The translations under genes and the position numbers were made by a program. A model generated the notes under the pieces. It was not told the origin of the DNA. It searched no databases and saw only the letters and a program-made list of their open reading frames with translations. Shown here one piece after another: positions 36,576 to 61,026 of a stretch of 64,000 bases of DNA; the stretch's first letter is position 1; the number at the start of each line of letters is the position of its first letter. The stretch comes from Promethearchaeota archaeon (GTDB lineage: Archaea; Asgardarchaeota; Lokiarchaeia; Sigyniarchaeales; SOKP01), in NCBI GenBank assembly GCA_011364925.1, contig RDOA01000010.1:16803-80802 (forward strand), read 5' to 3'.

Positions 36576-39500
36576 TCAAATCTTTTCGTCTTTTTTCTTC
36601 TTAAAAAGGAGGTATCCTAGCACTATTAATGTCAGAACAATTGGAATAAAGATTGTCATTGGATTCTCTCCACTAATTCTAAATATATAGTAAGAAATTG
36701 TAATAATTGAAGCAAAGAAGGCGATGATTGAGCCATACTGGTTAGCAAGGTTTTTTAAACGCCTCATAAACATATAAACGCGAAAATTCATTTTCTTTAT
36801 GACTTCTAACTCATTTTCATTAAGGGATTTTAATATTTCAGGATTTTCGTAGTATAATCCGATCTGGGGATCGAATTTGCCACTTAATTTACCCGCGCTA
36901 ATAAGTGAGATAAGATGCTTTTGAATCAACGGTTTTTTTATCTTTAATTCGTTTTGTAAAAAACTAAGGGTAAGATATTCGTTTGCTACAGCTTTCACTG
37001 CCATATCTACATACGATTTTACGATTGATTCTTCCAAAGTTTTAACCTTTTCTCTTAGGATCTCATTGAATTCCTTGATAAACCGATCAAAGTCATTGAT
37101 TATGTGTTGATTTTTGGTATCGAAATTATTAGAGTTTTTGATAAATTCCTTGTATAATTCCTTAATCCTCTTGTTAGTATTTCTAATTTCTTGCTCTATA
37201 TACTTATTCTTTTTAGATACTCTAACATAAGCATGTCTGTATTGCTCCGTTTCAATGTAATCCTCTACTCGAGTTTGAAGGGTACCCAATAATTGACTTA
37301 GATGAATACTACTCTTATTTATCGTAGATAGCAATTTACTGCGATTAGTTTCAAGTTTTAACGAATTTATCGTTTCTTCAATTTGTTCCACTTTTTCACT
37401 AACAAGTTTTTTAATTTCATTCTTCTTCTCTAAATAGAATTCTCTTGCTTCTGGTTCAAATTTTTTGGATTCAAAAGTTTTAGCAATTACTTCTTTAAGC
37501 TTTTCTTCTATTTTATCATCCGTTTGCTTTATTTTTATCTCAACTTTCATAATCCTATTATCGAGAATTTCCTTCATTTTTCCATAAAACTCGACTTTTT
37601 CAATATCCTCAGCTGTCTTTACAAAAGTATTTTCTATATCGATTTTTAAAGCGTTAAACTCGTTAACCATGAAAGATTCTAAATTCTTAAATAAGAGTAA
37701 ATTTTCATTAATTTTTTCAATTGCTAATTCGTTGTTTTTCACAATTGCGATTACATTATTGCTCAATTCCTTGTTTTCTAATCGCTTTTCGTCTACATTT
37801 AATTCTTTAACCTTTAAATTATATTGCTCGCTTATTAATTTTTTAAAATTACTCATATCATTAATTCTATTTTGAATTTCTAAAAAATTAACTCCCAATG
37901 TTTTGTTTTTTATGCATGAGTCGTAAAGCGCCAATAGTTGTCCCACTTTTTCCTGTGTTTGCTTTAATATTCTATTTTCCGTGTAATTTTTTAATTCTCT
38001 GTTCTTATGATATGCATCCGTGTGAACTATAAGTTCTTTTTTATCTTCAAGTAAATCTCCTTGCAATTTAGAGACATCAATTAATTCTTTTATTCTAGGT
38101 ATTACAACTTTACATTTTAATTTTAATTTATCAGCAAGCTTCTTTATATCAATCTTATCAGTGTTCTCTTCTTCGCTCATAAGATAAATTTCCTTAGAGA
38201 TTATTCTATTTACATATTCGTCCTTTAACTTTGATACTTCATTGTTCAAGAAATTATCAAAATTGTTCCACTGAATTATCTTTATATAATTCTCTTCAGA
38301 TTCATTATTAACGTCGTTTAAACTTGCTATTTTTTTAGAGAAATTCTTGTTATACTCACTAAATTCTATAATAATTGCATCGAACCCGCTTATCACATCT
38401 GGTATTTTATTAACACGATTTTGGTCAATGTTAAATTTGTATTTTTCTAATTTATCTTTGAATAGTTGGATTGAATTCGATACATAATCATCAAAATCCT
38501 CTATTTTGGCTCGCTTTCTCTCTTCAATCACTTTTTCTTTTAGAATTTGGACCTGATCTGCGATAAGCTCAATAATGTTTTCCTCTAAGCTGTCCAATTT
38601 TTCGTTAAGATATTTATAAAGTGGAAAGAGTTTTTGCTTAAAGCTTGTATTTTTCTTTACTAATTGTTTTAATTTGTGAATTTCCTCAGTTTTTTCTTTA
38701 AGCAAAATGTCTGATTCAGTTTTGATGATCTTGAATGCATCCTGATATTGGTGATTAATGACTTGGTGCTTAGCTTTTTCTTTTATCGTTAATATTCCAT
38801 ATTGGATGTTGTCTTTAACATTTCCTATGTTTTTATTTAACTCGTTAAAAAATTGAAAGCCATTAGTGTATTCCGCAAAAATAGAATCGAAGTTTTCTTT
38901 AAATTCAACCCATTTATGAATTATTTTCTTGTGGTTTTTAGCTATTTTATTCTCCTTAGAAGTTATTTGATGAGATACTTTGTAAATGACTCCATCATAT
39001 TTACTAACAGTTTGAGAGATTCTATTAAACGCTTGAATAATAAGATCAAATTTTTCCTCATTATATCCTTTATCCAAGACTTCTACAATGTAATTCTTAA
39101 AAGAATCTACTTCATGATTTATTTTATCTTGGATGTCATATATTTTTGTGTCCAATTCATCTAGTATGATGTTAAATTTCTTTAAACTCTCTTTTTCTTG
39201 AATCTCTTCTTGGAGATAGCTGTTTAATCCATTCAAGTGAGTTTGTAATAAAGAATAGGATTTATTCCATTGCGCTATTTCAGCACCAAGGGTTGCTTGG
39301 ATATTAATATAAATTAATTCTTGGTTGAAAGAGGATTCTATGTTTTCATTTAAGAAATCCGCTTCCATCAATGAATTTCGCAAGACATACTTTAATCTTT
39401 CTTTCGCGAAATCAACTTCATCTATTAGAAGATAAGATTCAATCTCTTCTTTAATTTGTGGAATAGTGTTTCTTAATTTTAATGTCATATTGTAAATGTC

Positions 39501-40988
39501 GTTTCTTATTTCCCTTAATTTAGCCTTTTCTTCGTATAACCTCTCAGTATTAATTTCATTATCAACGATAAGAATCTTTTTGAAAAGGTAATCCAAACAG
39601 AAATAATATTTGGTTTTAAATAAATAAGCTTTTTTTGCTTTAATTTGCCCCTCAAAAAAATGATTGCTTATCATATCATGAATTATTGGGAAAATATCTT
39701 CTTTTAATCTTAAAGATTCTTGTCCATCGGAAGCTCTATACTTTTTAAAAATATCAGAGAGCGGGACTACACTGTTACTATTAAGTTGTCTATAAATTTC
39801 TTCAATAATTACTCTCTTGCCTTGGCTTAAATTTTGAATATATTGGGTGAATTCTTGTGTATTATCAACTTCTTTTAAAGTGAAAGTGTAATTCAAATTG
39901 ATATATAGCACGATTTCCTCTAAACCATGCGTTAATCCAAAGGTACTTTTAACTTGGTTTAAATCGATGAATTTATTCGTTTCTAACTGTTTAAAAACGA
40001 CTCTTTCAATCTCTTCAATGAAACGGGTCCAAATTATAGATAATAATATTACAAGTTGAGTTACTTCTCTTAGAATAATCAGATTCCAGCCAGTTGTGGC
40101 TCTAAAAATACGATCTATTTTTTCCGTAATAAAAGAATACACTCTTGCAGGATTATAATCAATCAACCACGAATAAATGTGGAGAATGTTCACAATCCAG
40201 AAAGTTGTGTCAACATCTTCTTCTTGGAAAATAAAACTAAACCCACCGCTTTCTTTTTGAAATTGATATAGAAATTGAATTTCTTTATCCTTAACTTCTG
40301 AATCTAAATCAAAGAATTTTAAGCTTAAAAGTTTGAACATTATCGAGGAATCTCTTTTCCTCTCTTTTAAGTACGTGCGAAATTGTTCCTTGAATACTCT
40401 AACATCTATTCCGATAAGCAGAAGGCTTTCTATAACATAATAAAAAGTTTTTGCTACAGGACCGTCATTGCATTCTTCGCAACCCTTATCAAAACAGTGT
40501 AAGAATCCATTATTTTTTTTATGCGCATAAATAAAATTCTTCAATTGTCGAACGATAACATCTTCACCCTTGGAGGAAAGATACTCGTTTAACGAACCTA
40601 ATAATTCAAGACTGGCTAGAGCGTAATAAAGCGACCAAATATCTGGTTTACCTAACGAAGTTGGAGATGATTTAAAACCTAGTTGATCTTTTTCAATAAT
40701 CTCAACTTCGCAAGATTTTATAAGTTTTAAGAAATCCTCACGAAAAACATCAATTTTTTGCTTGAGATATTTTCTAAGCAAAAGAAACCAATAAATGTTG
40801 TCCAAGTTTAAATTAGACTCTGTAAGTAAGTTCTCATTATAATATCGATACAATTCTAAAACTTTCTCGTAATTACTCAAATAAATGTTCCCAATATCCT
40901 TTCTATTTTTTAATAAATAGGATTTAAACGGTTCTTTCTTGAATTCCGTAATGTAGGGATATGCGGTCTTATTTTCTACTTGTGTCAA
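36576..40988 (-). CDS. Giant membrane-anchored coiled-coil protein with toroid-like N-terminus and winged-helix elements
   Basis: 1470 residues. N-terminal ~60-330 is helical with repeat-like SLYYALASLELLG and ESGGFSFI/DVDTTFW patterns as in prenyltransferase/terpene-cyclase toroids. Three winged-helix-like segments follow (~395-450, ~955-1000, ~1365-1410). The long middle (~490-1350) is charged coiled coil. The extreme C-terminus has two membrane helices (~1418-1438, 1445-1463) and KKKKDEKI, so nearly everything is cytosolic. The last winged helix recalls PCI/UFL1-like domains, but that is weak. No known family fits the whole; a tether or scaffold is the natural guess. Converges on GDPD with a 14-base gap. 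Confidence 0.75.
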   Translation of the reverse strand: MTQVENKTAYPYITEFKKEPFKSYLLKNRKDIGNIYLSNYEKVLELYRYYNENLLTESNLNLDNIYWFLLLRKYLKQKIDVFREDFLKLIKSCEVEIIEKDQLGFKSSPTSLGKPDIWSLYYALASLELLGSLNEYLSSKGEDVIVRQLKNFIYAHKKNNGFLHCFDKGCEECNDGPVAKTFYYVIESLLLIGIDVRVFKEQFRTYLKERKRDSSIMFKLLSLKFFDLDSEVKDKEIQFLYQFQKESGGFSFIFQEEDVDTTFWIVNILHIYSWLIDYNPARVYSFITEKIDRIFRATTGWNLIILREVTQLVILLSIIWTRFIEEIERVVFKQLETNKFIDLNQVKSTFGLTHGLEEIVLYINLNYTFTLKEVDNTQEFTQYIQNLSQGKRVIIEEIYRQLNSNSVVPLSDIFKKYRASDGQESLRLKEDIFPIIHDMISNHFFEGQIKAKKAYLFKTKYYFCLDYLFKKILIVDNEINTERLYEEKAKLREIRNDIYNMTLKLRNTIPQIKEEIESYLLIDEVDFAKERLKYVLRNSLMEADFLNENIESSFNQELIYINIQATLGAEIAQWNKSYSLLQTHLNGLNSYLQEEIQEKESLKKFNIILDELDTKIYDIQDKINHEVDSFKNYIVEVLDKGYNEEKFDLIIQAFNRISQTVSKYDGVIYKVSHQITSKENKIAKNHKKIIHKWVEFKENFDSIFAEYTNGFQFFNELNKNIGNVKDNIQYGILTIKEKAKHQVINHQYQDAFKIIKTESDILLKEKTEEIHKLKQLVKKNTSFKQKLFPLYKYLNEKLDSLEENIIELIADQVQILKEKVIEERKRAKIEDFDDYVSNSIQLFKDKLEKYKFNIDQNRVNKIPDVISGFDAIIIEFSEYNKNFSKKIASLNDVNNESEENYIKIIQWNNFDNFLNNEVSKLKDEYVNRIISKEIYLMSEEENTDKIDIKKLADKLKLKCKVVIPRIKELIDVSKLQGDLLEDKKELIVHTDAYHKNRELKNYTENRILKQTQEKVGQLLALYDSCIKNKTLGVNFLEIQNRINDMSNFKKLISEQYNLKVKELNVDEKRLENKELSNNVIAIVKNNELAIEKINENLLLFKNLESFMVNEFNALKIDIENTFVKTAEDIEKVEFYGKMKEILDNRIMKVEIKIKQTDDKIEEKLKEVIAKTFESKKFEPEAREFYLEKKNEIKKLVSEKVEQIEETINSLKLETNRSKLLSTINKSSIHLSQLLGTLQTRVEDYIETEQYRHAYVRVSKKNKYIEQEIRNTNKRIKELYKEFIKNSNNFDTKNQHIINDFDRFIKEFNEILREKVKTLEESIVKSYVDMAVKAVANEYLTLSFLQNELKIKKPLIQKHLISLISAGKLSGKFDPQIGLYYENPEILKSLNENELEVIKKMNFRVYMFMRRLKNLANQYGSIIAFFASIITISYYIFRISGENPMTIFIPIVLTLIVLGYLLFKKKKDEKI

Positions 40989-41113: not shown

Positions 41114-42607
41114 TTATAAAGAGGGATCGCTATTAAAACTCCAAGTTGCACTAATCCCTAAATTATCGTGCATTAAGGGACTTTGAGTAGCTATTAATGG
41201 AGCGAATTGTCTCCAGGGTATAAAATTACTAGCATTATTAAACGCTATAGCCACACTTTTATTTTGATCTAATTGCTCCCAAAATTGATGAAAGAACCAC
41301 GATCCAGCAAATCCATCTCCATTGAGATTGTTTATCCAGTACCATGAAAATACATTCGAAGACGAACTCACGAACAATGTGTTTGGTAAGTTATACCAGC
41401 TCGAACCGATGTTTTTATTTTGATTAAGAAAATTACCGCTAAAACAAGAATCCATATTTATCATCATACGCTCACAGGTGATATCATTTACTAAATCGTA
41501 AAACTCAAACTCCGTAATAAAGCTATTATCAGCTTCAAAATGAAATGTAGCGTTTCCATCACCTAAAACTTTGTTTGAACCATGATCAGTCATAAATATG
41601 ATTAATTGATCTTTGGAATTGATCCCCGAAGCAAACGAGCCTGAAACTGTTACATTTAACTCTTTTTTAAACCGACTTGCATTGACATCGTTGTTTTCTA
41701 CATCAATTACTGCTCCAATTAGATCGTTTAAAATCCCATCTCCTGCTTTTATGTCAATAACAGGATCATTAGTGTGATAAAGCATAAAAAAGATATTATC
41801 GTCTGTATATCCATGTGATCTTAAAATCCAATATACGTGAAGAGCTTGAGCGGGAAATCCATCTGAATCAATTCTATTTGGAGGAGGATTTGGATCCGTT
41901 GGATTAGTAACGTTGACAGCTATCCATTTGTCTATTTTAACATCATCAAAGTAAAGTTCATCATTGTGAGTCATGTTGCCTTTTACTGATAAAACAAGCT
42001 GCATCTCCGTAATAATATTACCAGATGCATTATTACATACGCCTGAAACATGTAAAATTTCCCACTGTCCAGCTGTTGTTAATAACCCACTTGACCAATC
42101 TGTTCTTATAACTCCACTTGTACCAAACCACCTTAAACCAACTCGAGCACCGGGATATTGAGCAGCAGTTGGTATAATAAATGTAGGTATATTTACCCAA
42201 GCTGACAGATTATAATATGCGTATTCTATTAAGCTATGATAATTTGTCCAGTTATATGTGTATTCAAAATTTTGATATCCAATGGAGAAAGGAAAAGCGT
42301 TCGCAATCAAGTGTAAAGCTCCAGGATTTCCGTCCTTACCGGGAACACTATCAGGTCCACCATACATATTAGTTGCATTTGCTACCCATCTACCTGAATC
42401 ACCACTAAAATTAGACTGAAAACCAGTATTGAAATCATCCTCTGATTCAGAAGCATAAAAATCATTAGCACTTCCAAGGATTATTGCTTTTCTTACGCCT
42501 TGTTGTGATGGAGGTGTTGTTGGTGGGATGCTTATAAAAATAAAAGCGATTATTATTATCCCTAAGAGCAATATTGCGATAACAGGAAGTATTATTTTCC
42601 ATTTCAT
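41114..42607 (-). CDS. Membrane-anchored C13 (legumain/GPI8-like) peptidase with inserted beta-sandwich domain
   Basis: 497 residues. Residues 1-27 form a signal anchor (KWK then a hydrophobic run); the rest is outside. The caspase-like fold starts with RKAIILGSAND (39-49), is interrupted by a jelly-roll-like carbohydrate-binding domain (~60-230), then resumes with ALHVYWILRSHGY. Catalytic H342 is in FMTDHGSN and C388 in NMDSCFSG, both in legumain-like contexts. Many N-x-S/T sequons suit an extracellular glycoprotein. Legumain and GPI8 are eukaryotic; prokaryotic C13 relatives exist. Likely substrate or transpeptidation activity unknown. A stand-alone gene. Confidence 0.72.
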   Translation of the reverse strand: MKWKIILPVIAILLLGIIIIAFIFISIPPTTPPSQQGVRKAIILGSANDFYASESEDDFNTGFQSNFSGDSGRWVANATNMYGGPDSVPGKDGNPGALHLIANAFPFSIGYQNFEYTYNWTNYHSLIEYAYYNLSAWVNIPTFIIPTAAQYPGARVGLRWFGTSGVIRTDWSSGLLTTAGQWEILHVSGVCNNASGNIITEMQLVLSVKGNMTHNDELYFDDVKIDKWIAVNVTNPTDPNPPPNRIDSDGFPAQALHVYWILRSHGYTDDNIFFMLYHTNDPVIDIKAGDGILNDLIGAVIDVENNDVNASRFKKELNVTVSGSFASGINSKDQLIIFMTDHGSNKVLGDGNATFHFEADNSFITEFEFYDLVNDITCERMMINMDSCFSGNFLNQNKNIGSSWYNLPNTLFVSSSSNVFSWYWINNLNGDGFAGSWFFHQFWEQLDQNKSVAIAFNNASNFIPWRQFAPLIATQSPLMHDNLGISATWSFNSDPSL

Positions 42608-51224: not shown

Positions 51225-52034
51225 TTACTTCACTTTTAAAAACTTTTTTGACGAAAATCGAATTCCTATAGATAAGAAGAATAATGCAAAAATCACAGTC
51301 AATGGTAAGAATCCCAATACAATATAAGCAAAAGCTGGTTCTGTCGAATAGAAAAACAATGCGATAGTAGCCCCTAAATGTATGATGGAGAATGCGATCG
51401 ATAAATTTCTGTTAGTGGATAAAAATCCGAAAAGAAGATTGGGAAAAAGGAATAAGATTACGATATTAACCGTGGATAATAGAATTAATGCTGGGAAAAA
51501 GCGTGAAAATAATTGATTAAGGTTGAAATACTGAGTTAAATTGAAAGCGGCGTAAATAAATAGGGTTACGTTGATACTTAAGAAAACTAAAAGAATGGTC
51601 AAAGGGACATTAATTAGCCAAGATAGGATATTTCTAAAGATTGGAGAATGGATTGTTTTCGTTCTTAAAACATCTTGAATAATTTTTTCCATTTCTTCCT
51701 GAAGAATTTTTTCATGATCGTAATCGGGTGAATATGAATCGATAAATTCCTGTAAAATTTCCTTTAAAATTTTTGTAACGAGTTCGTCGTTATCTCTCGT
51801 ACTTACGATCGCAACTCCAAGCACTCTTTCGTCCTCGTTAGGCACCAAAATAAGCTTATTATTTTCACCAAGATTAACATATTTTACTGCCGTACCTAAC
51901 GCTTCTCTGCTGAAATTTGCGATTGAAGTGAAAAATCCGATTAATAAATTATCATCGTAATGTTCTTCCCTTGAAAAATCTTTAGAATATAATAAAATCC
52001 CGCTTTCATCCAAAATATAAAGATTTTTTAACAT
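51225..52034 (-). CDS. Longin/roadblock-like domain protein with four membrane helices
   Basis: 269 residues. The N-terminal ~105 residues read as a longin-type fold: strands NLYILDESGILLYSK and KLILVPN...VLGVAIVS with helices between. A coiled segment (~105-130) leads to four membrane helices (~136-163, 178-203, 210-230, 235-258). Longin and roadblock domains are expanded in Asgard archaea and serve small GTPases and trafficking in eukaryotes. It is the last gene of the ABC-2 operon (35-base gap after the pseudo-ABC gene). The longin call rests on pattern, not alignment. Confidence 0.6.
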   Translation of the reverse strand: MLKNLYILDESGILLYSKDFSREEHYDDNLLIGFFTSIANFSREALGTAVKYVNLGENNKLILVPNEDERVLGVAIVSTRDNDELVTKILKEILQEFIDSYSPDYDHEKILQEEMEKIIQDVLRTKTIHSPIFRNILSWLINVPLTILLVFLSINVTLFIYAAFNLTQYFNLNQLFSRFFPALILLSTVNIVILFLFPNLLFGFLSTNRNLSIAFSIIHLGATIALFFYSTEPAFAYIVLGFLPLTVIFALFFLSIGIRFSSKKFLKVK

Positions 52035-52068
52035 TTTTTTATTCCATCCTTCTTTCGAACATTAAATA

Positions 52069-53790
52069 CTATTTATTCTCAATAAATTCCATATATTCTC
52101 CTATAGTGGCAGTCGATCTTTTAAAGCTATACAAACTTGAACCAAGGAGTTCGGTAATTTGAATAACTATTCCGGGAATATTTTCTTTGATAAAAATCTT
52201 GAACTTTTCATTTTTTCTTTCTTCGATAATTTTCACGATTTCCTTCATTTGTTTTAAGTTCTGAATCGACAACTCATCTGGATTGTTTAATTCGACATTC
52301 AGAATTTCACCATATTGAGGCAGACTTTCAATGTAATCTTTAAAAGAACCTATTTTTGAAGTAGATTTTGTAATTGTTAGAATCTGATCACAATTTGATA
52401 CAATTTCCTGAGGACCATGGAAAAGTAAGACTAAGTGAAAATTCTCTTTTATTTTATCCATATAGGAGTTAAATTTCTCATATTCTAATTTTCCCAAAAT
52501 CCCGAAAGGAATAGAAAACATAATAATTGTAGGTGACTGAATTAAGGCTTGTGTAATTGAAAACATGAGAAATTCTAAGGGCGTTAACTTCGAGAATCTT
52601 TTGTTTTTCTTATATAATAATCCCGTCGATTCTAAAACTTTTTTTCTAAATTGTTTTTTCCAGCGAAAACCATGGGATTTTTCTTTTAGAAATTCTCCCA
52701 TAATGTCATCTAAACTCTGATTTAATCCTGCATCCCTTAAAATTGAATTAAAATCACTTTTTTCTTTCTTATATGTCTCTTTTAAATACTTTTTGTACTT
52801 GAGTGCTTTTTTGATTCTCATTTTTGCTATTGATGAATCGTAAGCTTGAGGTAAGATGAAAATCCTCGCTTTTTCTCGTTTAGATAGTAATATCATTGGA
52901 TTCCCAAAAATGTCGATTAATCCTGCTGATGTTGTTTGATTTCCAGCTATCGTGTCAAATAAATTCATAAGATCTAACCTAGGATCGACTTTTTCAAAGC
53001 CTTTTTCATCAAAAATTATTCCTATCGACTTCCCTCTATGAATCTTAAGAGACAAATTGTCAATAATATCACCCACAGAAACGCGTTCGAGAACCAAATA
53101 TTGAGAATTCTTTTTTAATTCTTTTATTTTAAGGCGTATGGGCACTAAGTCGCATATTTTTTCGATAATTTCATACGCATGGGGGTGGTGGTTGACATCC
53201 CAATCCTTGATGATTTCTTGTTCGCTAAATTCTCTTTCAGAAATAATTTTGGAAAGAGATTTCGAAAATGAGAATGTTGGAAGCATTGGATATTTTTCTA
53301 AGTTAACATTTAGCTTAATAACGAAATCCGGAAAATAAATTCTAATCTCTCGAAAATAAGGATTTGTTTGAATTTGATAATTCTCAAATCTATCATCAAT
53401 CAGCTTAACCTCGGAATCTAAAAGTTGTAAGTGCTTCTGAAATTCTACTCGAATAAATCTCCTCATTCTTTGGAGTATTTTTACCAAATTTACCGTGCCG
53501 TCCTCTTCAATATCTGGAGTATATATTATCTCACTAAAATCAATTTCATTTTCGATTGGAGTGTAAATTTTTAGTAATGGGACTCCCTTATTAATAACGT
53601 CGCTATTTGTAAAAAATAGGACTTCTATGAAAGATTTTTTGTAAATCAAATTAATAATTGAGGCAATTCCAAAAGTATTTTCTCGAAACGTCATCCAAAA
53701 ACGCTTAGAAAAGCGAATCGCCTTGAGAATTTTTTCTCGCAAACGTTCCAATTCTTCTTCTCTAGAGTTCTCCAACCTTTGGCACCTCAA
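52069..53790 (-). CDS. RWD/UBC-like region fused to a degenerate ABC ATPase domain
   Basis: 573 residues. Residues ~125-215 have the E2/RWD pattern: strand IRIYFPDFVIKL, then a YP-x-x-P-x-F loop (KYPMLPTFSF) and a W-D...HHPHAYEIIEKI helix. Residues ~230-480 follow ABC ATPase order but the motifs are ruined: Walker A GFEKVDPR, signature LTPLEFLMF, Walker B IIMFSIP; the H-loop FHGP remains. It cannot hydrolyse ATP in a normal way. It overlaps the upstream toroid-ABC gene by 29 bases (start TTG 53790; later TTG codons possible), so the two are translationally coupled and likely partners. Confidence 0.6.
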   Translation of the reverse strand: MRCQRLENSREEELERLREKILKAIRFSKRFWMTFRENTFGIASIINLIYKKSFIEVLFFTNSDVINKGVPLLKIYTPIENEIDFSEIIYTPDIEEDGTVNLVKILQRMRRFIRVEFQKHLQLLDSEVKLIDDRFENYQIQTNPYFREIRIYFPDFVIKLNVNLEKYPMLPTFSFSKSLSKIISEREFSEQEIIKDWDVNHHPHAYEIIEKICDLVPIRLKIKELKKNSQYLVLERVSVGDIIDNLSLKIHRGKSIGIIFDEKGFEKVDPRLDLMNLFDTIAGNQTTSAGLIDIFGNPMILLSKREKARIFILPQAYDSSIAKMRIKKALKYKKYLKETYKKEKSDFNSILRDAGLNQSLDDIMGEFLKEKSHGFRWKKQFRKKVLESTGLLYKKNKRFSKLTPLEFLMFSITQALIQSPTIIMFSIPFGILGKLEYEKFNSYMDKIKENFHLVLLFHGPQEIVSNCDQILTITKSTSKIGSFKDYIESLPQYGEILNVELNNPDELSIQNLKQMKEIVKIIEERKNEKFKIFIKENIPGIVIQITELLGSSLYSFKRSTATIGEYMEFIENK

Positions 53791-56700
53791 TTAGTTTATA
53801 TCTAAAAAATTGTTCCATTTTTGAATCTATTTGCTTAATATCTAAGATTGAATCTTTCCCAACCTCAAGTTCGATTTTAGCAATTAAATCTTTTACACTC
53901 AAATTAGTAAGCAAAGAATACTCTGTACCTGCTTTGTTTTCTAACACACTTTCAATACCTTCTATTGTTTCCAATTTTTGAATTACATTCTCCTTGATCT
54001 CCTTGAAATATACTTCGATTGATCGCCCCTTCCCAGGCAATTGTGCTAGTAGATTCTTAGGCTTACCAAAATCGATGACACCTCTATTCCTCCCAAAAAT
54101 TGCCACGCGATTACAAAATCGGGATTCCTCCGGATAATGGGTTATTACAATTAGCGTTGTACCGAATTGTTCGTTAATTTTAGTGAGAGCTAACCATAAA
54201 TTCTCTCGGATAATTGGATCTAAACCCGAGGTCGGTTCATCTAAAATAAGAAATATAGGCGAATGAATTAAACCAATCGCGATGCTTACTCTTCTTTTTT
54301 GACCTCCTGAAAGGTTTCTCACGAGTTCGTTCGTCTTGTCTTCTATTTCAAGATTACGTAGGAGTCTTCTCGATCTACTTATGATCTCTCTTTCCGATAA
54401 CCCATACTGGCTTCCGAAAGATAACAAATTATCTAAAACAGTGAAATTATGATAAATTTTTCCAAGATCTTGAGGTACGTAACCGTAGATCGGTCGTATT
54501 TTTTTGGATGTTCGTTTATTGATGTTTAATCCAAAAATTTGACAGAATCCCGTAACTTTTCGCATCCCCAATAAGCCTTTAACAAACGTAGATTTTCCTG
54601 CCCCACTTTCCCCTAAGATTCCTAGTATTTGACCGTGATCCACTTTCATAGTTACTGAATCAACAATCAATTTTCCTCCAGCAAACACATTAAAGTTTTC
54701 ACAATTAATTGCTGGAAACCTCCGCAGATAGGCTGGTGAGATTTTTTCTCCATATCCTAATTTTTCTGCTATTCTTTTTATTAAGGAGAGTTTCTGTCTA
54801 ATTTTTAACGCTATAAGTATCGTAATCAAGCCTGCCTCAGTAAGTAGAATATATACTAATAAGGTGTTCCATGGTTTAGAATTGAAGCTTTGATCGTATT
54901 TTAATTCATCAATAATTATAATTCCATACGGTATGTTTCTTAAGTCAGCTCCAAAGGAAGGATTATCACCCACCCCCCCTGTACTACTGCTAATACAATC
55001 GGCAAACCATAATAGCGCTCCTTGAATATCTTCGGGTTGAAAATTGTAATCATAGAGCGATTTAGAAGCCATAAATGTCGTAATAAAAGATGATGGTAAT
55101 GCTAAAAATTGTCCCATCATAGGTATAAGGGAAAAGCTTCCATCTGAATTTTGAGATTGTTTTAAAAATTCAATTACTGATATTTTCGACATCGGTCCGT
55201 TAACATAATCCTCTGTAAACAATTGAAGTCCGTAATATGTTGAAATAATATCGCTGTGAAAACCAACAAAGATGGAAAATCCTCCATCAGCGTTTTGACA
55301 CGATCTTACCCAATGACTAAAATTAGTATAGGAGATCCTATCCAATCCATTTATTAAATCCAAAGATTTCACCGCCCAATACGTACTTTCCATCGTTGAT
55401 ACATTTGTGTTTATAAGATCAGTAAAAATGATTGAGTAAGCTCCAAATAGGGAGAGTATATAGTTAACATTTTGTCCCGCTTTAAAGCCACCATCGGCAT
55501 TTTGTAGGCTTGCTAAGTAATATTGTGTTAAATTTAGGTAGTATGATGGAAACCAAGGACGAGATATAGGAATTATCATTTGTAACAAATTTAATCCACA
55601 GTATGTAGAAAAAAGTGTTGCATTCTGGCCAGGTTTCGAACCGAAGCCTCCTTCGCTTGGATTATAGCACATTACGGTGAAATTTAAGACGCTGTTTTTC
55701 ATAAAATGAAACTCTGGAGTGTCAATAGAGTCCAGATAGCCCATATTATAATATGTCAAAATCCCAAAATAATTAGATTCGATCGTAATTTGTCCAAAAA
55801 GGCCATTTCTTGCTTGGTAAAAGTGTAACCATCGATAATAACCCATTGAAATCTGGTTTATTGTATTGACTTTTTGATTACTAAGCATTGTTAAATTCTT
55901 TAAAATATCGATTGATTTCATTGCTGCCCAACCTGACTTGAAATCAGAAATAGAAGCATTAGGTCGAACTCCAAATCCTCCGTTATTATTAGAACAATTT
56001 AACACGAAATTAAGTGTTTCGTCTTCATTTATTAATAGATCTAGCCCTAATAAGCTTAAAGTTGAAATGGAGTAATAAGTAGTTTGGACATCGGACATAC
56101 CTGTTTCAGGATTTATATAACCTCCATCGATTAGACTATAATGAGAACTGAAATAAGCGCCAATATCTAAAAGTTCAGCTAAACTGTAAGACATGTTCAT
56201 CCCAAGAAAAGCTCTTACACCGTAATATGTTGTTTCTGGAGTAGCCATTAGTGAATCATTAGTCAATCTATAACTACCCGTGAGAGGGGTCCAAGTAGAG
56301 TTAATAAATTCTCCAATCTTTTGGTTTATAAGTAGGTTACCTTTTGCTATATTATACGACGAAACGATAGCGCAATATGTTGAAATAATGTCAGAATTGT
56401 TTAATAACGGAGTAAGCCTAAAACCCCAACCTCCACCATTTAGAGAGTCTAATAAATAATTTGCGATGTTTTCAGTTTCTCCAAGAAGTATTTTGCTTTC
56501 GAGATACAATATGTTCATTATTTTCAGAGTCTCTAACGCCTCGTAAGTTGAAAGCATATTTCCAAAGCCAGCGATATCTGAATATGAACCGTCGATATTT
56601 TGTTTCTCAAAAAGATAATCAAAAAAGAAATTGCGAAAGTTAAAAACCAAATGTGGGTTGTCATTAGGATTAATTAACTCGGGAGTATACAAGTTTGAAA

Positions 56701-56920
56701 AAGAATAGTTAATCGAACTTACTGCTCTAAAGTTAGCATCTATCTCAGGTTCTACGAACAATCCAAGATCATTATGATGAGTGCTTGTGAAATAAGTTGC
56801 TAAGTTTTTTGCTTGAGCAACGTTTTTCTCACTGATATAATAAGTCCAGTGAATGTTTATTAAGACTAGGGATAAAATCGGGGTTCCAATTAGTAAGATA
56901 AGGATGACGAGTCTCTTAAT
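53762..56920 (-). CDS. Toroid (prenyltransferase/terpene-cyclase repeat) ectodomain fused to ABC ATPase
   Basis: About 1052 residues when started at the in-frame ATT 56920; the first TTG (56761) would drop the N-terminal membrane helix. From the TTG numbering: ~40-620 is a large external domain with QNADGGF (~420, 489), QNSDGSF (~537), GGFG (~261, 371) repeats as in squalene-cyclase/PFTB barrels; a membrane helix at ~634-653; then an ABC domain with GESGAGKS (717-724), LSGGQ (817-821) and LILDEP (838-843). The catalytic DDxTxx motifs of terpene cyclases are absent. I infer an exporter ATPase coupled to an external ligand- or substrate-binding barrel. Family fusion is, to my knowledge, unusual. 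Confidence 0.78.
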   Translation of the reverse strand: MKRLVILILLIGTPILSLVLINIHWTYYISEKNVAQAKNLATYFTSTHHNDLGLFVEPEIDANFRAVSSINYSFSNLYTPELINPNDNPHLVFNFRNFFFDYLFEKQNIDGSYSDIAGFGNMLSTYEALETLKIMNILYLESKILLGETENIANYLLDSLNGGGWGFRLTPLLNNSDIISTYCAIVSSYNIAKGNLLINQKIGEFINSTWTPLTGSYRLTNDSLMATPETTYYGVRAFLGMNMSYSLAELLDIGAYFSSHYSLIDGGYINPETGMSDVQTTYYSISTLSLLGLDLLINEDETLNFVLNCSNNNGGFGVRPNASISDFKSGWAAMKSIDILKNLTMLSNQKVNTINQISMGYYRWLHFYQARNGLFGQITIESNYFGILTYYNMGYLDSIDTPEFHFMKNSVLNFTVMCYNPSEGGFGSKPGQNATLFSTYCGLNLLQMIIPISRPWFPSYYLNLTQYYLASLQNADGGFKAGQNVNYILSLFGAYSIIFTDLINTNVSTMESTYWAVKSLDLINGLDRISYTNFSHWVRSCQNADGGFSIFVGFHSDIISTYYGLQLFTEDYVNGPMSKISVIEFLKQSQNSDGSFSLIPMMGQFLALPSSFITTFMASKSLYDYNFQPEDIQGALLWFADCISSSTGGVGDNPSFGADLRNIPYGIIIIDELKYDQSFNSKPWNTLLVYILLTEAGLITILIALKIRQKLSLIKRIAEKLGYGEKISPAYLRRFPAINCENFNVFAGGKLIVDSVTMKVDHGQILGILGESGAGKSTFVKGLLGMRKVTGFCQIFGLNINKRTSKKIRPIYGYVPQDLGKIYHNFTVLDNLLSFGSQYGLSEREIISRSRRLLRNLEIEDKTNELVRNLSGGQKRRVSIAIGLIHSPIFLILDEPTSGLDPIIRENLWLALTKINEQFGTTLIVITHYPEESRFCNRVAIFGRNRGVIDFGKPKNLLAQLPGKGRSIEVYFKEIKENVIQKLETIEGIESVLENKAGTEYSLLTNLSVKDLIAKIELEVGKDSILDIKQIDSKMEQFFRYKLIEVPKVGEL

Positions 56921-56940
56921 CCATTTTTTACCTTTTCGGC

Positions 56941-57954
56941 TTAATTTTGATATTGAGGACCACCATTGTTAATTAATTCAATTTGGGTTTGCACTTTTTC
57001 CTTAGTTTCTTCTTCTTGAATTCTGATCTGAAAGTACCTTCTAAAGTTAGCAATGTCCCTGCTCATAGAAATAACTTTATACTCTTTTTCAAAAAGGAAC
57101 TTCATAAACTTTGGTAAATTTTCATCAAATTGATCCATAAGTACTTCTATAGTTTCGTTTCCAACTCTTAGCACTTTTTTAATAGATGGATACCCCTGAA
57201 TTACATTTATAATTTTTTGATTAAGATTTTCGATTGAGATTCTTGCCACCAGACCATTACTCGGCAGTGAGCTTATCAAATTTTGAGGGGTATCAAATTC
57301 AAGCAATCTCCCTTCCCTTAGGATTGCTGTTTTGTCACATATCAGTGCTGCTTCTAAATCGTGCGTTATAATAAACATCGTGGTATTCAACTGCTGGTTT
57401 AGCTTCTTTAAGTAACTCAATACATCGTAGCGTCGTGATGCATCAACTCCAGTTGTTGGTTCATCAAGAAATAGAACGTCAGGACTATGGATTAACCCAA
57501 TTGCCATTGAAAGGCGCTTTTTTTCGCCACCGCTCATTTTTTTTACTCGTTTTTTCCAAGTATCTTTAGGGATATCCAGAATTTTAAATAATTTTTCTGC
57601 CGTTTTTTTAGCTTCTTTTTTATCCATACCGTAAGTAGATGTAAAAACTTCAACGTTTACCATAGGAGTTAGCTCAAAGTATAAATTCAATAGTTCTAAT
57701 TGAGGTACATATCCGATATTGCTTAGTATCTTTGAATGATTAGCTTTCTTACTCGGATCTAAGCCCGTCACAGATACTGTACCATTCCAATTCTTTTTTT
57801 CAATTTGACATGTTAAAACTCTGATTACAGTCGTCTTTCCAGCCCCAGAAATGCCGAACATGCCGATAATTTCCCCCTTTTTGACACTAAAAGACACATC
57901 ATGAACAATATGTTTTTTACCAAATATTACGTTTAAATCTTCGACTGAAACCAT
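56941..57954 (-). CDS. ABC transporter ATP-binding protein (ABC-2 type)
   Basis: 337 residues with intact motifs: Walker A GISGAGKTT (34-42), signature MSGGEKKR (140-147), Walker B LFLDEPTTG (161-169) and H-loop TITHD-like IITHDLEAA. The C-terminal extension (~230-337) is the regulatory tail of drug- and polysaccharide-exporter ATPases. It follows permease 2 by 30 bases and precedes the toroid-ABC fusion, so the complex likely contains one normal ATPase and one fused ATPase, as a heterodimer. Confidence 0.92.
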   Translation of the reverse strand: MVSVEDLNVIFGKKHIVHDVSFSVKKGEIIGMFGISGAGKTTVIRVLTCQIEKKNWNGTVSVTGLDPSKKANHSKILSNIGYVPQLELLNLYFELTPMVNVEVFTSTYGMDKKEAKKTAEKLFKILDIPKDTWKKRVKKMSGGEKKRLSMAIGLIHSPDVLFLDEPTTGVDASRRYDVLSYLKKLNQQLNTTMFIITHDLEAALICDKTAILREGRLLEFDTPQNLISSLPSNGLVARISIENLNQKIINVIQGYPSIKKVLRVGNETIEVLMDQFDENLPKFMKFLFEKEYKVISMSRDIANFRRYFQIRIQEEETKEKVQTQIELINNGGPQYQN

Positions 57955-57984
57955 TGTTTTACCAGATAATTCAGTAATCTCCTT

Positions 57985-59235
57985 TTACACCTCGTATTTT
58001 CTTCTTTGGAATATAATATACGACAAACCTACTAAGATTAAACTTACTCCTAATAATGCGAAAAAGTCAAAACCGAATACTGATCTTCCTTTAGTGATTA
58101 TACTGTTTATTAGAGGGCTTCCGTGAGATAACGGAAGTATATACGCGATGACTTGCAAATAAATAGGCATTGCTTCGATCGGTATAAAGATCCCACTCAA
58201 AAGAATCAATACTAGAAATGTAGCTAAAAACAATTGGTTTGCTTGCGTCTTAGTTTTACTTACTGAGCTAATAAATATCCCTAATGTGAGTCCTGTAAAT
58301 CCCAAGATAAACAACGCGAGGAATAAATCAAGAAATGACCCTACTAAATATAATCCAAATGCCAATGCAGTAGAAATAAGTGAGAGATTTTGGATTATTA
58401 GAATACTGATGTAAGTTAAATATTTCGCTGTAAGAATTTCGAGCCTCTTAACCGGAGTTAGAAGCAATCTAGCAACTGGTTTCTCTTGCACAACTATTAA
58501 AATCGTTGAAACCATGCCCACTCCTATTATCATGAACGAAAGAACGAGGACTATCATATAATTATAACTAAAGCTATAACCTTCAGGTATAGAAAATTCT
58601 TCATAACCTTTTATTTTAAATTGAGGAGATAAATTATTTTGAAAAACAAATATTTTAATGGAGTCGTAAACCGCGTTCAAACTTACTTGGATTTTTTGGA
58701 TGTCAGACGAGTCTGTTACACAGTCTATTAAACCAGGATATCCCCATTCAATTAACTCCGAGAAATCAACGGGAATTGATATTATAACTTTTATCTGTTT
58801 AGCAGTTAAAAGATTTCTCGCCGTTTCCATTGCGTAGATCTCTTCAGTAGCATTAAAAAATTGGACAAGATTTAATAAATTTGAGGCATTTACAGCTTCT
58901 ACATACTTAAGGTTATAATCGTCTAATGTGGATTCGGTAAAATTATTTTCGTCAATAAAGACATTTGAGTCATAGGATACCACTACGCAATTAATTGGTT
59001 GGACGGTAGCTCTAGGATTGCCAGAAGTTAAACCTAACGCAAGGATTACAAGAGGAGGTACAATTAATGCTATAAACATGTTGAATTTATCTGTCCAAAG
59101 GAGCCGGAACTCTTTTTTAATTTGCTTAAGTAATCTGACTAAGCCATTTTTCAATTTAAAGCTCCGCTTTTTATCTTGACTCTCTCTCCGATTGATTTTG
59201 TCACACCTCCAATTTTTTAAATTTATACGAGACAT
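57985..59235 (-). CDS. ABC-2 transporter permease (second)
   Basis: 416 residues from ATG 59235. Layout: TM1 (~50-70), a large external domain (~75-225) with several N-x-S/T sites, then five helices near the C-terminus, as in YhgE/DrrB-type permeases. The ATG overlaps the upstream permease by 35 bases and has no SD. An in-frame ATC at 59194-59196 sits 4 nt after GGAGGTGTGA, and a TTG at 59154 after GGAG. One of these is the likelier start (390-403 residues). Pairs with permease 1. Confidence 0.87.
   Translation of the reverse strand: MSRINLKNWRCDKINRRESQDKKRSFKLKNGLVRLLKQIKKEFRLLWTDKFNMFIALIVPPLVILALGLTSGNPRATVQPINCVVVSYDSNVFIDENNFTESTLDDYNLKYVEAVNASNLLNLVQFFNATEEIYAMETARNLLTAKQIKVIISIPVDFSELIEWGYPGLIDCVTDSSDIQKIQVSLNAVYDSIKIFVFQNNLSPQFKIKGYEEFSIPEGYSFSYNYMIVLVLSFMIIGVGMVSTILIVVQEKPVARLLLTPVKRLEILTAKYLTYISILIIQNLSLISTALAFGLYLVGSFLDLFLALFILGFTGLTLGIFISSVSKTKTQANQLFLATFLVLILLSGIFIPIEAMPIYLQVIAYILPLSHGSPLINSIITKGRSVFGFDFFALLGVSLILVGLSYIIFQRRKYEV
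59201..59210 (-). promoter_or_regulatory. Strong Shine-Dalgarno GGAGGTGTGA at permease 1/permease 2 junction
   Basis: It contains the TGA stop of permease 1, so translation is coupled. The first in-frame codon at the proper distance (4 nt) is ATC 59194-59196, not ATG/GTG/TTG. Confidence 0.7.
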
Positions 59236-60352
59236 ACGCTGCGAATAAGAAAATCATAGAAATTAAGAGAAGAGAAAGTACGTGCTCCAAATTTAAACTT
59301 AAGCCTCTCAACGTAACATCAGTAATTAAAATAGATGCATGACTTAAAGGAAAGAGGTCTGCAAGGAATCGCGCTCCACCTAACGATTCTGCTGGTAGAA
59401 GCGTCCCTGAAAATATAATCATGACAATAAACATCATCAAATACATTTGATTAGCTCCTTGTTCCGTTGGACTAATTGCCGAGATAAATAGACCAATTGC
59501 AACCCCGCTAAGTCCTATCATGAGTAAAATTAGGTAAAACGAAAAAAGAGATCCTAAACTGTATAATCCAAAAAATGCCGTCATTACAAATATTTCTGTA
59601 GATTGCAATATCATAATTACCGTATTTGCAATTAATTTACTAAAGAGAATATCTCTCTTTGATGTAGGTGTAATAAGCATTCTTGGAAGTGGTCCTTCAG
59701 CTACTATTGATAAAGATGTTAGGTTCATTGTTGTGCCCACAATAATAATTGGTAAAATTAAAGAAAGAGAATAATTAAGCAGTTGGGATTCCCAGGAAGG
59801 GACTCCAAATTCGAGATGTGGAACCATAATAGTAAAATTTTCTAACATACCTGTTGCTACTCTAAAAAGAGAAATTGGTTCTTGAAGAGACACCTCAATC
59901 GCACTCACAGCAGTTCGATCAGAACCGTCAATATAATAAATCAAAACAGGATTGGAGTTATTTGCAATTGACTCTGAGAAATTCTGAGGAAGCACAATAA
60001 ATACATCTATGAGGTCGTTTTTCAAAAGTGTAAGACAACGATTAATTGCGTGATTATACTCTTCACTGTTCGTAGCATTAAAGGAGCGATAAAGGTCCCA
60101 AGTTGTCGTGTTATATTTAATTATTGAAATAAATACTTCATCATACTCAGATGAGTTTGATGGGAAATTCTCGTAGGTAGGCATCTCATCTTGACTAATA
60201 ATAGCAGCGGTAAAAAATTTAGTTGGACCCACACCTGTAGTAAGTCCAAAGATAACAATTAATATCATAGGAATTACAAACAATAGAATTAGAGTTCTTC
60301 GATCAGATCTAATCCTATTAAATTCTTTTTGGATTAATCCAGATAAAGTCAT
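59201..60352 (-). CDS. ABC-2 transporter permease (first)
   Basis: 383 residues; ATG at 60352. TM1 (~19-39), then an external domain (~45-200) with many N-x-S/T sequons and YIDGSD-like strands, then helices at ~205-235, 245-270, 280-305, 310-335 and 355-378. Architecture as in two-permease ABC-2 exporters of lipids, drugs or glycans. First gene of the six-gene operon and sequence-related to permease 2. Confidence 0.87.
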   Translation of the reverse strand: MTLSGLIQKEFNRIRSDRRTLILLFVIPMILIVIFGLTTGVGPTKFFTAAIISQDEMPTYENFPSNSSEYDEVFISIIKYNTTTWDLYRSFNATNSEEYNHAINRCLTLLKNDLIDVFIVLPQNFSESIANNSNPVLIYYIDGSDRTAVSAIEVSLQEPISLFRVATGMLENFTIMVPHLEFGVPSWESQLLNYSLSLILPIIIVGTTMNLTSLSIVAEGPLPRMLITPTSKRDILFSKLIANTVIMILQSTEIFVMTAFFGLYSLGSLFSFYLILLMIGLSGVAIGLFISAISPTEQGANQMYLMMFIVMIIFSGTLLPAESLGGARFLADLFPLSHASILITDVTLRGLSLNLEHVLSLLLISMIFLFAAYVSYKFKKLEV

Positions 60353-60501: not shown

Positions 60502-61026
60502 TTATGAAGGGAAATCTTTCAATTTCAATATAGTTCTCCTTTCTTTGTCATCCTCAATAAATCTTCGAAAAATTTCATTATTATCGTCAATAAATTCCCA
60601 AAATTCTTCGTAAATTTCCTGTAATGTCATTTTATGTTTCTTATTGAAGTACTCCTCGAAACTATTAACTCTATTCTTGTAGTCTGGTTTCTTTTTAATT
60701 TCTTTTGAAGAATCTTTATCTGATGCACTAGATTTATACAGCTCTAAGCTATCTACAAAATGATCTTTATAGGTTGGCTTTAGTTTGCTATCCTTTTTAG
60801 TTTCTTCTGAATTCAATTGGTAATCCACCTTTTGATACCCTCGAATCGAGAAATTTTTATCTATAAATAATTGAAAATGATGTTTGCATACTCTATTTTG
60901 AGGAACTGAAATAGTCGTTAAACGAGAGGTCTGGTCTACTATCGATTTGGGAACCTGAATTACTCTTCTGGCTTTACAAACGGGACATATAACTTCAATA
61001 TACCTATTAACTGTTATAGCTTCCAT
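60502..61026 (-). CDS. Unknown protein with N-terminal zinc-ribbon-like CPVC motif
   Basis: 174 residues. The N-terminal ~60 hold CPVCKARR, VPKSIVDQTSRLTTISVP and CKHHFQLFIDKNFSIRGYQ; the C/C/C/H set suggests one zinc site. The rest (~70-174) is charged, low in hydrophobics, with a helical acidic C-terminus. Family unknown, though the CKHHFQ-x-F-x-DKNF-x-x-RGY pattern looks like a conserved archaeal small-protein motif. It lies 149 bases upstream of the ABC-2 operon on the same strand and may be linked to it, but a separate promoter is plausible. Confidence 0.65.
   Translation of the reverse strand: MEAITVNRYIEVICPVCKARRVIQVPKSIVDQTSRLTTISVPQNRVCKHHFQLFIDKNFSIRGYQKVDYQLNSEETKKDSKLKPTYKDHFVDSLELYKSSASDKDSSKEIKKKPDYKNRVNSFEEYFNKKHKMTLQEIYEEFWEFIDDNNEIFRRFIEDDKERRTILKLKDFPS

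Follow-up and report, generated by a model that had tools for sequence, protein, structure and literature searches.

What kind of machine would bring an ATP-binding cassette (ABC) exporter together with longin and RWD domains, elsewhere familiar mainly from the membrane-traffic and ubiquitin machinery of eukaryotes? The question is raised by a locus of a Promethearchaeota archaeon of the class Lokiarchaeia (Asgard archaea), in a stretch of 64,000 nucleotides of contig RDOA01000010.1 that we refer to as the window. Between positions 51225 and 60352, an earlier reading made from the letters alone (the sequence-only reading) had placed six minus-strand genes in the 5′ to 3′ order permease 1, permease 2, free ATPase, toroid-ABC fusion, RWD-pseudo-ABC fusion and longin-transmembrane protein, and a check of the open reading frames found all six open at these places. 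We report that these genes are one conserved module and not a chance neighbourhood, and we discuss what this module might do.

Conservation of the six-gene module

We surveyed 228 whole genomes of the phylum, and 47 of them contain a match that extends over the toroid; these belong to the window's own family and to families f3 to f7 of its order and class. The six genes follow one another in the same order in 29 related loci, without interruption in 24 and with an insert or a split gene in five, the remaining loci being broken off by contig ends. Conserved synteny in relatives, on which the sequence-only reading had staked its proposal beforehand, is therefore present. The genes can also stay together in another arrangement, as in locus L049 where the pseudo-ABC gene is divergent and the permeases lie downstream. 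No mobile elements were recognised by Pfam in the open reading frames inserted at operon breaks.

The two most unusual genes also travel together. Of the 47 genomes with toroid-ABC, 45 gave a pseudo-ABC, whole or split, in a profile search; in the remaining two (G099 and G082) the locus is cut short by the end of the contig, and in G082 an RWD frame can be seen to begin. Only one of the 181 toroid-negative genomes (G045) has a pseudo-ABC. A contig scan with the pseudo-ABC, sensitive to close relatives only, gave four matches, all in Lokiarchaeia. Within genus g1, 17 genomes have the module, while seven, some of them 99-100% complete, have neither toroid-ABC nor pseudo-ABC; presence is all-or-none, and the module is gained or lost as a unit. 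Both synteny and co-occurrence thus bear out the earlier claim of a single conserved module.

Permeases and working ATPases

Both permease 1 (59201..60352, minus strand), whose orthologues also head the operon, and permease 2 (57985..59235, minus strand), whose orthologues also lie in it, are of the ABC-2 type. They match ABC2_membrane_3 above the Pfam cut-off (2.7e-22 and 9.6e-26, respectively) and hydropathy gives six transmembrane helices for each. An outer loop of ~150 residues follows the first helix in permease 1, and permease 2 has the same architecture. The free ABC ATPase (56941..57954, minus strand; ABC_tran, 2.6e-25) has intact motifs, namely Walker A GISGAGKTT, signature MSGGEKK, Walker B FLDEPTT and H-loop ITHD. 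In the toroid-ABC fusion, the ABC domain and a C-terminal regulatory domain occupy 53765..54673 (minus strand; ABC_tran, 4.1e-25), and an alignment of relatives shows Walker A and signature in 29/29 members. Judged by these motifs, both the free ATPase and toroid-ABC are shown to be catalytically complete. The locus therefore holds what defines an ABC-2 exporter: Pfam-recognised permeases with six helices and ATPases with complete motifs.

An outer toroid lacking enzyme signatures

The frame of the toroid-ABC fusion is open from stop to stop over 53762..56968 (minus strand) and has full-length matches in Lokiarchaeial genomes. Residues ~46-690 (54896..56830, minus strand) form an ectodomain of ~650 residues made of ~11 repeats and matching Prenyltrans (4.7e-29). 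Transmembrane helices flank it at residues 20-38 (~56852-56908) and 702-720 (~54806-54862), with four basic residues before the first helix and three after the second. Given these helices and the positive-inside rule, the toroid is predicted to lie outside the cell and the ABC domain inside, in line with the proposal of an intact ABC ATPase bearing an extracellular toroid of the prenyltransferase type.

That the external repeats are of the prenyltransferase type had been put forward as a point to check, and it survived: the closest solved structures by sequence are GGTase-II beta subunits (E 4.8e-18), and the alpha-alpha toroid repeats are those of protein prenyltransferase beta subunits. The zinc ligands are not retained. 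In GGTase-II beta we take these to be the active-site Asp, Cys and His; in the best aligned repeat, the Cys is replaced by Gln and the His by Lys in the toroid, and the D-x-C motif is not conserved according to the alignment of relatives and a motif count. Signatures of squalene cyclases are equally scarce, with DxDD in one of 29 toroid sequences and the QW motif in none of the 29. Thus, the barrel is a toroid of the prenyltransferase superfamily but very probably not an enzyme of either kind. An active prenyltransferase or terpene cyclase was rejected for want of these active-site signatures, so that the "cyclase-like" toroid of the sequence-only reading gains no support for an enzymatic role.

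Toroid proteins are not confined to this operon. At least three more are encoded in the same genome. One, at 36576-40988 of the window, is a 1470-residue toroid and coiled-coil protein with C-terminal transmembrane helices; beside it, at 41114-42607, lies a gene for a C13 (legumain/GPI8-type) peptidase with an N-terminal transmembrane helix. The two others (L148:5466-8411 and L149:4022-5131) have a signal-like N-terminus and a C-terminal transmembrane helix; one of these genes adjoins peptide-type ABC permeases and the other actin-like, longin/roadblock-like and GTPase genes.

A dead ABC protein with tandem RWD domains

The protein encoded at 52069..53790 (minus strand) has no Pfam match, and whether it is ABC-like at all had been singled out as decisive. 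A profile of its family matches ABC ATPases in the PDB (best 4.6e-14), and three parts can be distinguished: a tandem RWD region (~53086-53790), a degenerate ABC core (~52351-53073) and a conserved C-terminal domain (~52072-52338). Walker A and signature motifs are present in 0/29 members, which by sequence agrees with the catalytically dead partner that had been proposed. Since they are also missing from the deep branches L047-L049, their loss must be old and the protein has been kept without them. The first RWD region has the highest mean conservation (0.71); the C-terminal domain reaches 0.57 and the ABC core 0.52. A C-terminal IEERKNEK segment is among the most conserved stretches of the protein.

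The N-terminus had been read as RWD/UBC-like and is in fact a pair of such domains. AlphaFold modelled residues 1-240 (predicted local distance difference test, pLDDT, 88.6) as two consecutive alpha-beta4-alpha units, and the best Foldseek matches are FANCL, Knl1, CENP-O, BRE and UFC1, all RWD or UBC-like. These fold matches are moderate (best E 3.5e-3, probability ~0.9), but most of the top ones are RWD/UBC-like and thus agree on the class. The family alignment contains no cysteine that is invariant or nearly so, and the protein is therefore not a ubiquitin E2 enzyme.

The pseudo-ABC of G045, a genome from another Asgard family, has no RWD domain (L150:1-1343). It stands directly after the end of an ABC domain resembling that of the toroid-ABC fusion, with which its contig opens. 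This case suggests that the pair is older than Lokiarchaeia and that the RWD region was added or lost.

A longin protein with membrane helices

The last gene (51225..52034, minus strand) encodes an N-terminal, cytoplasmic longin domain (~51675-52034) followed by four transmembrane helices, as predicted from the sequence, and fits the longin-like membrane protein of the sequence-only reading. Its Pfam matches are sub-threshold only, and its profile found no longin among PDB sequences, so that a fold search was required for the assignment. The AlphaFold model (pLDDT 83) has the longin order beta-beta-alpha-beta-beta-beta-alpha; Foldseek matches it to AP sigma and mu chains, COPI zeta and TRAPP longins with E values of ~1e-4 to 1e-3 and TM-scores to the target of up to 0.70.

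A sister exporter with a secreted subtilase

Matches to the ABC domain in other Asgard families belong to a different exporter (L039-L046, L058, L094-L097), which consists of an ABC protein with a cytoplasmic N-terminal domain, one or more ABC-2 permeases, a free ATPase and a giant secreted subtilase of 1250-1760 residues with an IFT52-GIFT/DUF4350 domain. In the ATPase tree, the free ATPases of the toroid and subtilase-GIFT systems group together (100/97) and toroid-ABC groups with the fused ABC of the subtilase-GIFT system (84/82), the version of G083 being nearest (99/99). The pseudo-ABC clade (100/100) is sister to the fused-ABC group (95/90), a position to be taken with caution because the branches are long. 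The toroid system is thus not isolated: the two systems have sister ATPases of both kinds and the same type of permease. In both, a free ATPase and a fused one are combined with ABC-2 permeases and a large module on the outside; to this common plan the toroid system adds the dead third ABC and the longin protein. They differ in that the fused ABC of the subtilase-GIFT system carries no toroid, its outer part being the separate subtilase, and no pseudo-ABC or longin gene was seen beside it. The N-terminal domains of its fused ABC vary; in L045, winged-helix repeats match E3_UFM1_ligase (2.4e-7).

Gene boundaries and an unusual start

Gaps and overlaps of at most 35 bases had been described throughout the operon. 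This holds for four junctions: permeases 1 and 2 overlap by 35 nucleotides and toroid-ABC and pseudo-ABC by 29, while permease 2 and the ATPase are separated by 30 nucleotides and pseudo-ABC and longin by 34. It holds for the ATPase-toroid junction only with a non-ATG start, since the first ATG/GTG/TTG of toroid-ABC (56761) lies 179 nucleotides past the ATPase stop. That codon falls downstream of the first transmembrane helix; the frame, the helix and its preceding basic segment reach into the 3′ end of the ATPase gene and are conserved in most relatives. The likely start is ATG in the deeper relatives L047, L048 and L050, TTG in L055, and ATA, ATT or ATC in most of the family. In the simplest reading, toroid-ABC would start at a non-standard codon, with this start coupled to the 3′ end of the preceding ATPase gene. 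No ATG/GTG/TTG stands ahead of the conserved N-terminal part in the window (56762-56968) and in the toroid genes of L059-L090, and the same was observed for permease 2 in several genomes (L060-L066).

A possible accessory gene upstream (60502..61026, minus strand) encodes a 174-residue CxxC (CpXC-like) protein, as judged from a Pfam scan and from neighbourhoods. Many relatives have it beside the operon, before or after it, and in this genome it is one of six related copies.

A probable bulge-helix-bulge intron in relatives

The window's own ATPase gene is uninterrupted, but in seven relatives (G118, G132, G137, G138, G103, G154 and G107) the free-ATPase gene is split by an insert of 31-34 nucleotides, located precisely where the codons of LDEPTT give way to those of GVDA (equivalent to 57451/57450 in the window). 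The sites are L057:10540-10611, L063:6582-6653, L076:4885-4956, L077:9880-9951 and L082:4032-4105, with L083 and L087 at the same site. Insert and flanks form a bulge-helix-bulge (BHB) structure with a 3-bp outer helix, a 4-bp central helix, 3-nucleotide bulges and an inner hairpin. The central helix pairs as AACT/AGTT, GACT/AGTT or TACC/GGTA, with one mismatch in L083. Across the intron structure, 89% of cells pair and sliding abolishes this pairing; the covariation score is 0.41 as compared to 0.17 in shuffles (0/500), although from seven related sequences only. Base changes between exon and intron are compensatory, and the intron is patchy among close relatives.

The cbf5 pre-mRNA intron of Crenarchaeota is reported to be cut between the second and third bulge residues (PMC2738675). 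The same cut in the ATPase gene would give ACA and restore the frame; 3-nucleotide bulges around a 4-bp helix and a frame mended by removal are hallmarks of archaeal BHB introns. Splicing-endonuclease genes were found in all seven intron genomes, two members of the family being present in six of them. A search of the 228 genomes with the intron model and strict filters returned only the same seven sites and none in other ABC genes. That the split genes are pseudogenes or sequencing errors was rejected, given one shared site in seven genomes, a covarying insert and exons that on both sides are still 58-84% identical to the window ATPase. The ATPase gene thus seems to provide a new example of BHB introns in protein genes of archaea, gained or lost repeatedly among close relatives. 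It resembles the cbf5 intron (PMC2738675) in its BHB type, its place in a protein gene, its patchy gain and loss and its cut rule, and differs from it by sitting in a Lokiarchaeial ABC ATPase and by its length.

Proposed function and alternatives

We tentatively favour, at slightly less than an even chance, a heteromeric ABC-2 (type V-like) exporter of Asgard archaea, mainly Lokiarchaeia, with a tethered outer barrel for capture or hand-over and a cytoplasmic regulatory module. Permeases 1 and 2 would form the channel as a heterodimer, and the free ATPase would pair with toroid-ABC as the ATP-hydrolysing couple. Toroid-ABC, anchored by its own two transmembrane helices, would hold its presumably non-catalytic barrel beside the exit, where it may capture, shield or hand over the exported molecule. 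The dead ABC might dock on the ATPases, probably via its conserved C-terminal domain, with the tandem RWD as regulator or adaptor, and the longin protein could be a membrane platform for a cytoplasmic partner, possibly a small GTPase, that switches or positions the exporter. From the ligands of the nearest fold relatives, our best guess for the cargo, a weak one, would be an isoprenoid or other lipid-linked molecule.

Several observations weigh against this exporter. An operon and co-occurrence are no proof of a single complex; permease genes are absent from the locus in G138 and G137 (L076 and L077), and only one is found in G159 (L047). The lipid guess is weak because toroid folds have other ligands too, among them cobalamin, glycans and protein partners. 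Finally, there is no GTPase gene in the conserved block.

It seems rather unlikely that in Lokiarchaea the longin platform and the tandem-RWD pseudo-ATPase couple small-GTPase signalling to the ABC-2 exporter and its extracellular cargo barrel. If they did, regulatory folds of eukaryotic type would have been connected to a membrane transporter before there were eukaryotes. In strain MK-D1, small-GTPase genes generally lie outside operons with longin genes (PMC10933270).

Might the machine instead be a receptor, whose barrel binds an outside ligand while the ATPases relay inward to the longin and RWD modules? The large tethered ectodomain, the cytoplasmic adaptor folds and a pseudo-ABC retained without catalytic motifs would suit such a role, and mechanotransmitting ABC proteins do relay signals in this manner. 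We nonetheless consider it improbable, as two complete six-helix export-type ABC-2 permeases are conserved and no typical output domain (kinase, transcription factor) occurs in the conserved block.

The kinship of both ATPases with those of the subtilase system raises the possibility that proteins or peptides are exported and that the toroid, in the role of the giant subtilase-GIFT protein, holds the emerging polypeptide for folding, anchoring or processing. The C13 peptidase gene ~9 kb off in the window could be accommodated here, but it lies outside the conserved block, and the conserved toroid operon contains no protease and no conserved precursor gene; we find this reading doubtful. Finally, the barrel could be an enzyme, a prenyltransferase or terpene cyclase secreted to modify the exported lipid. 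The Prenyltrans domain and the GGTase-II beta similarity speak for this, but the swapped zinc ligands (C→Q, H→K), the near absence of DxDD (1/29) and absence of QW (0/29), and the fact that one would not expect to find soluble isoprenyl diphosphates extracellularly make it very unlikely.

Asgard archaea have many longin and related "eukaryotic signature" domains without an assigned job, and because conserved synteny ties both longin and RWD to a defined membrane machine, their function becomes testable here. An ABC ATPase tethered to an outer toroid, together with a conserved dead third ABC, is also an unusual transporter design.

Comparison with known systems

We found no description in the literature of the six-gene system or of the ATPase-gene intron, and a survey of Asgard transporters mentions neither a toroid nor a prenyltransferase. 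ABC-2 (type V) exporters such as the YbhFSR type consist of two permeases and one or more ATPases. The Asgard system is like them in its ABC2_membrane_3 permeases with a large outer loop and in ATPases with an extra C-terminal domain; it differs by an ATPase with two transmembrane helices and a toroid, by the dead third ABC, and by the longin and RWD domains. With GGTase-II and FTase beta subunits the toroid shares the alpha-alpha repeats, but it is predicted to be extracellular, is fused to an ABC domain, has about twice as many repeats, has lost the zinc ligands and comes from an operon without an alpha subunit. Two consecutive RWD-type folds are also found in FANCL, Knl1 and BRE/BRCC45; those of the Asgard protein are fused to a dead ABC ATPase and lack a conserved cysteine. 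The longin fold is shared with coat and TRAPP longins and with the Asgard longin proteins already described (PMC10933270), from which the present protein differs by its four transmembrane helices and its fixed place in a transporter operon; the text of that paper mentions neither "transmembrane" nor ABC. Altogether, this is a genuine and conserved set of genes for which the literature found holds no description. It is a variant of the ABC-2 exporter and not a machine of a new kind; what makes it interesting are the eukaryote-like modules bound to a transporter, together with the intron.

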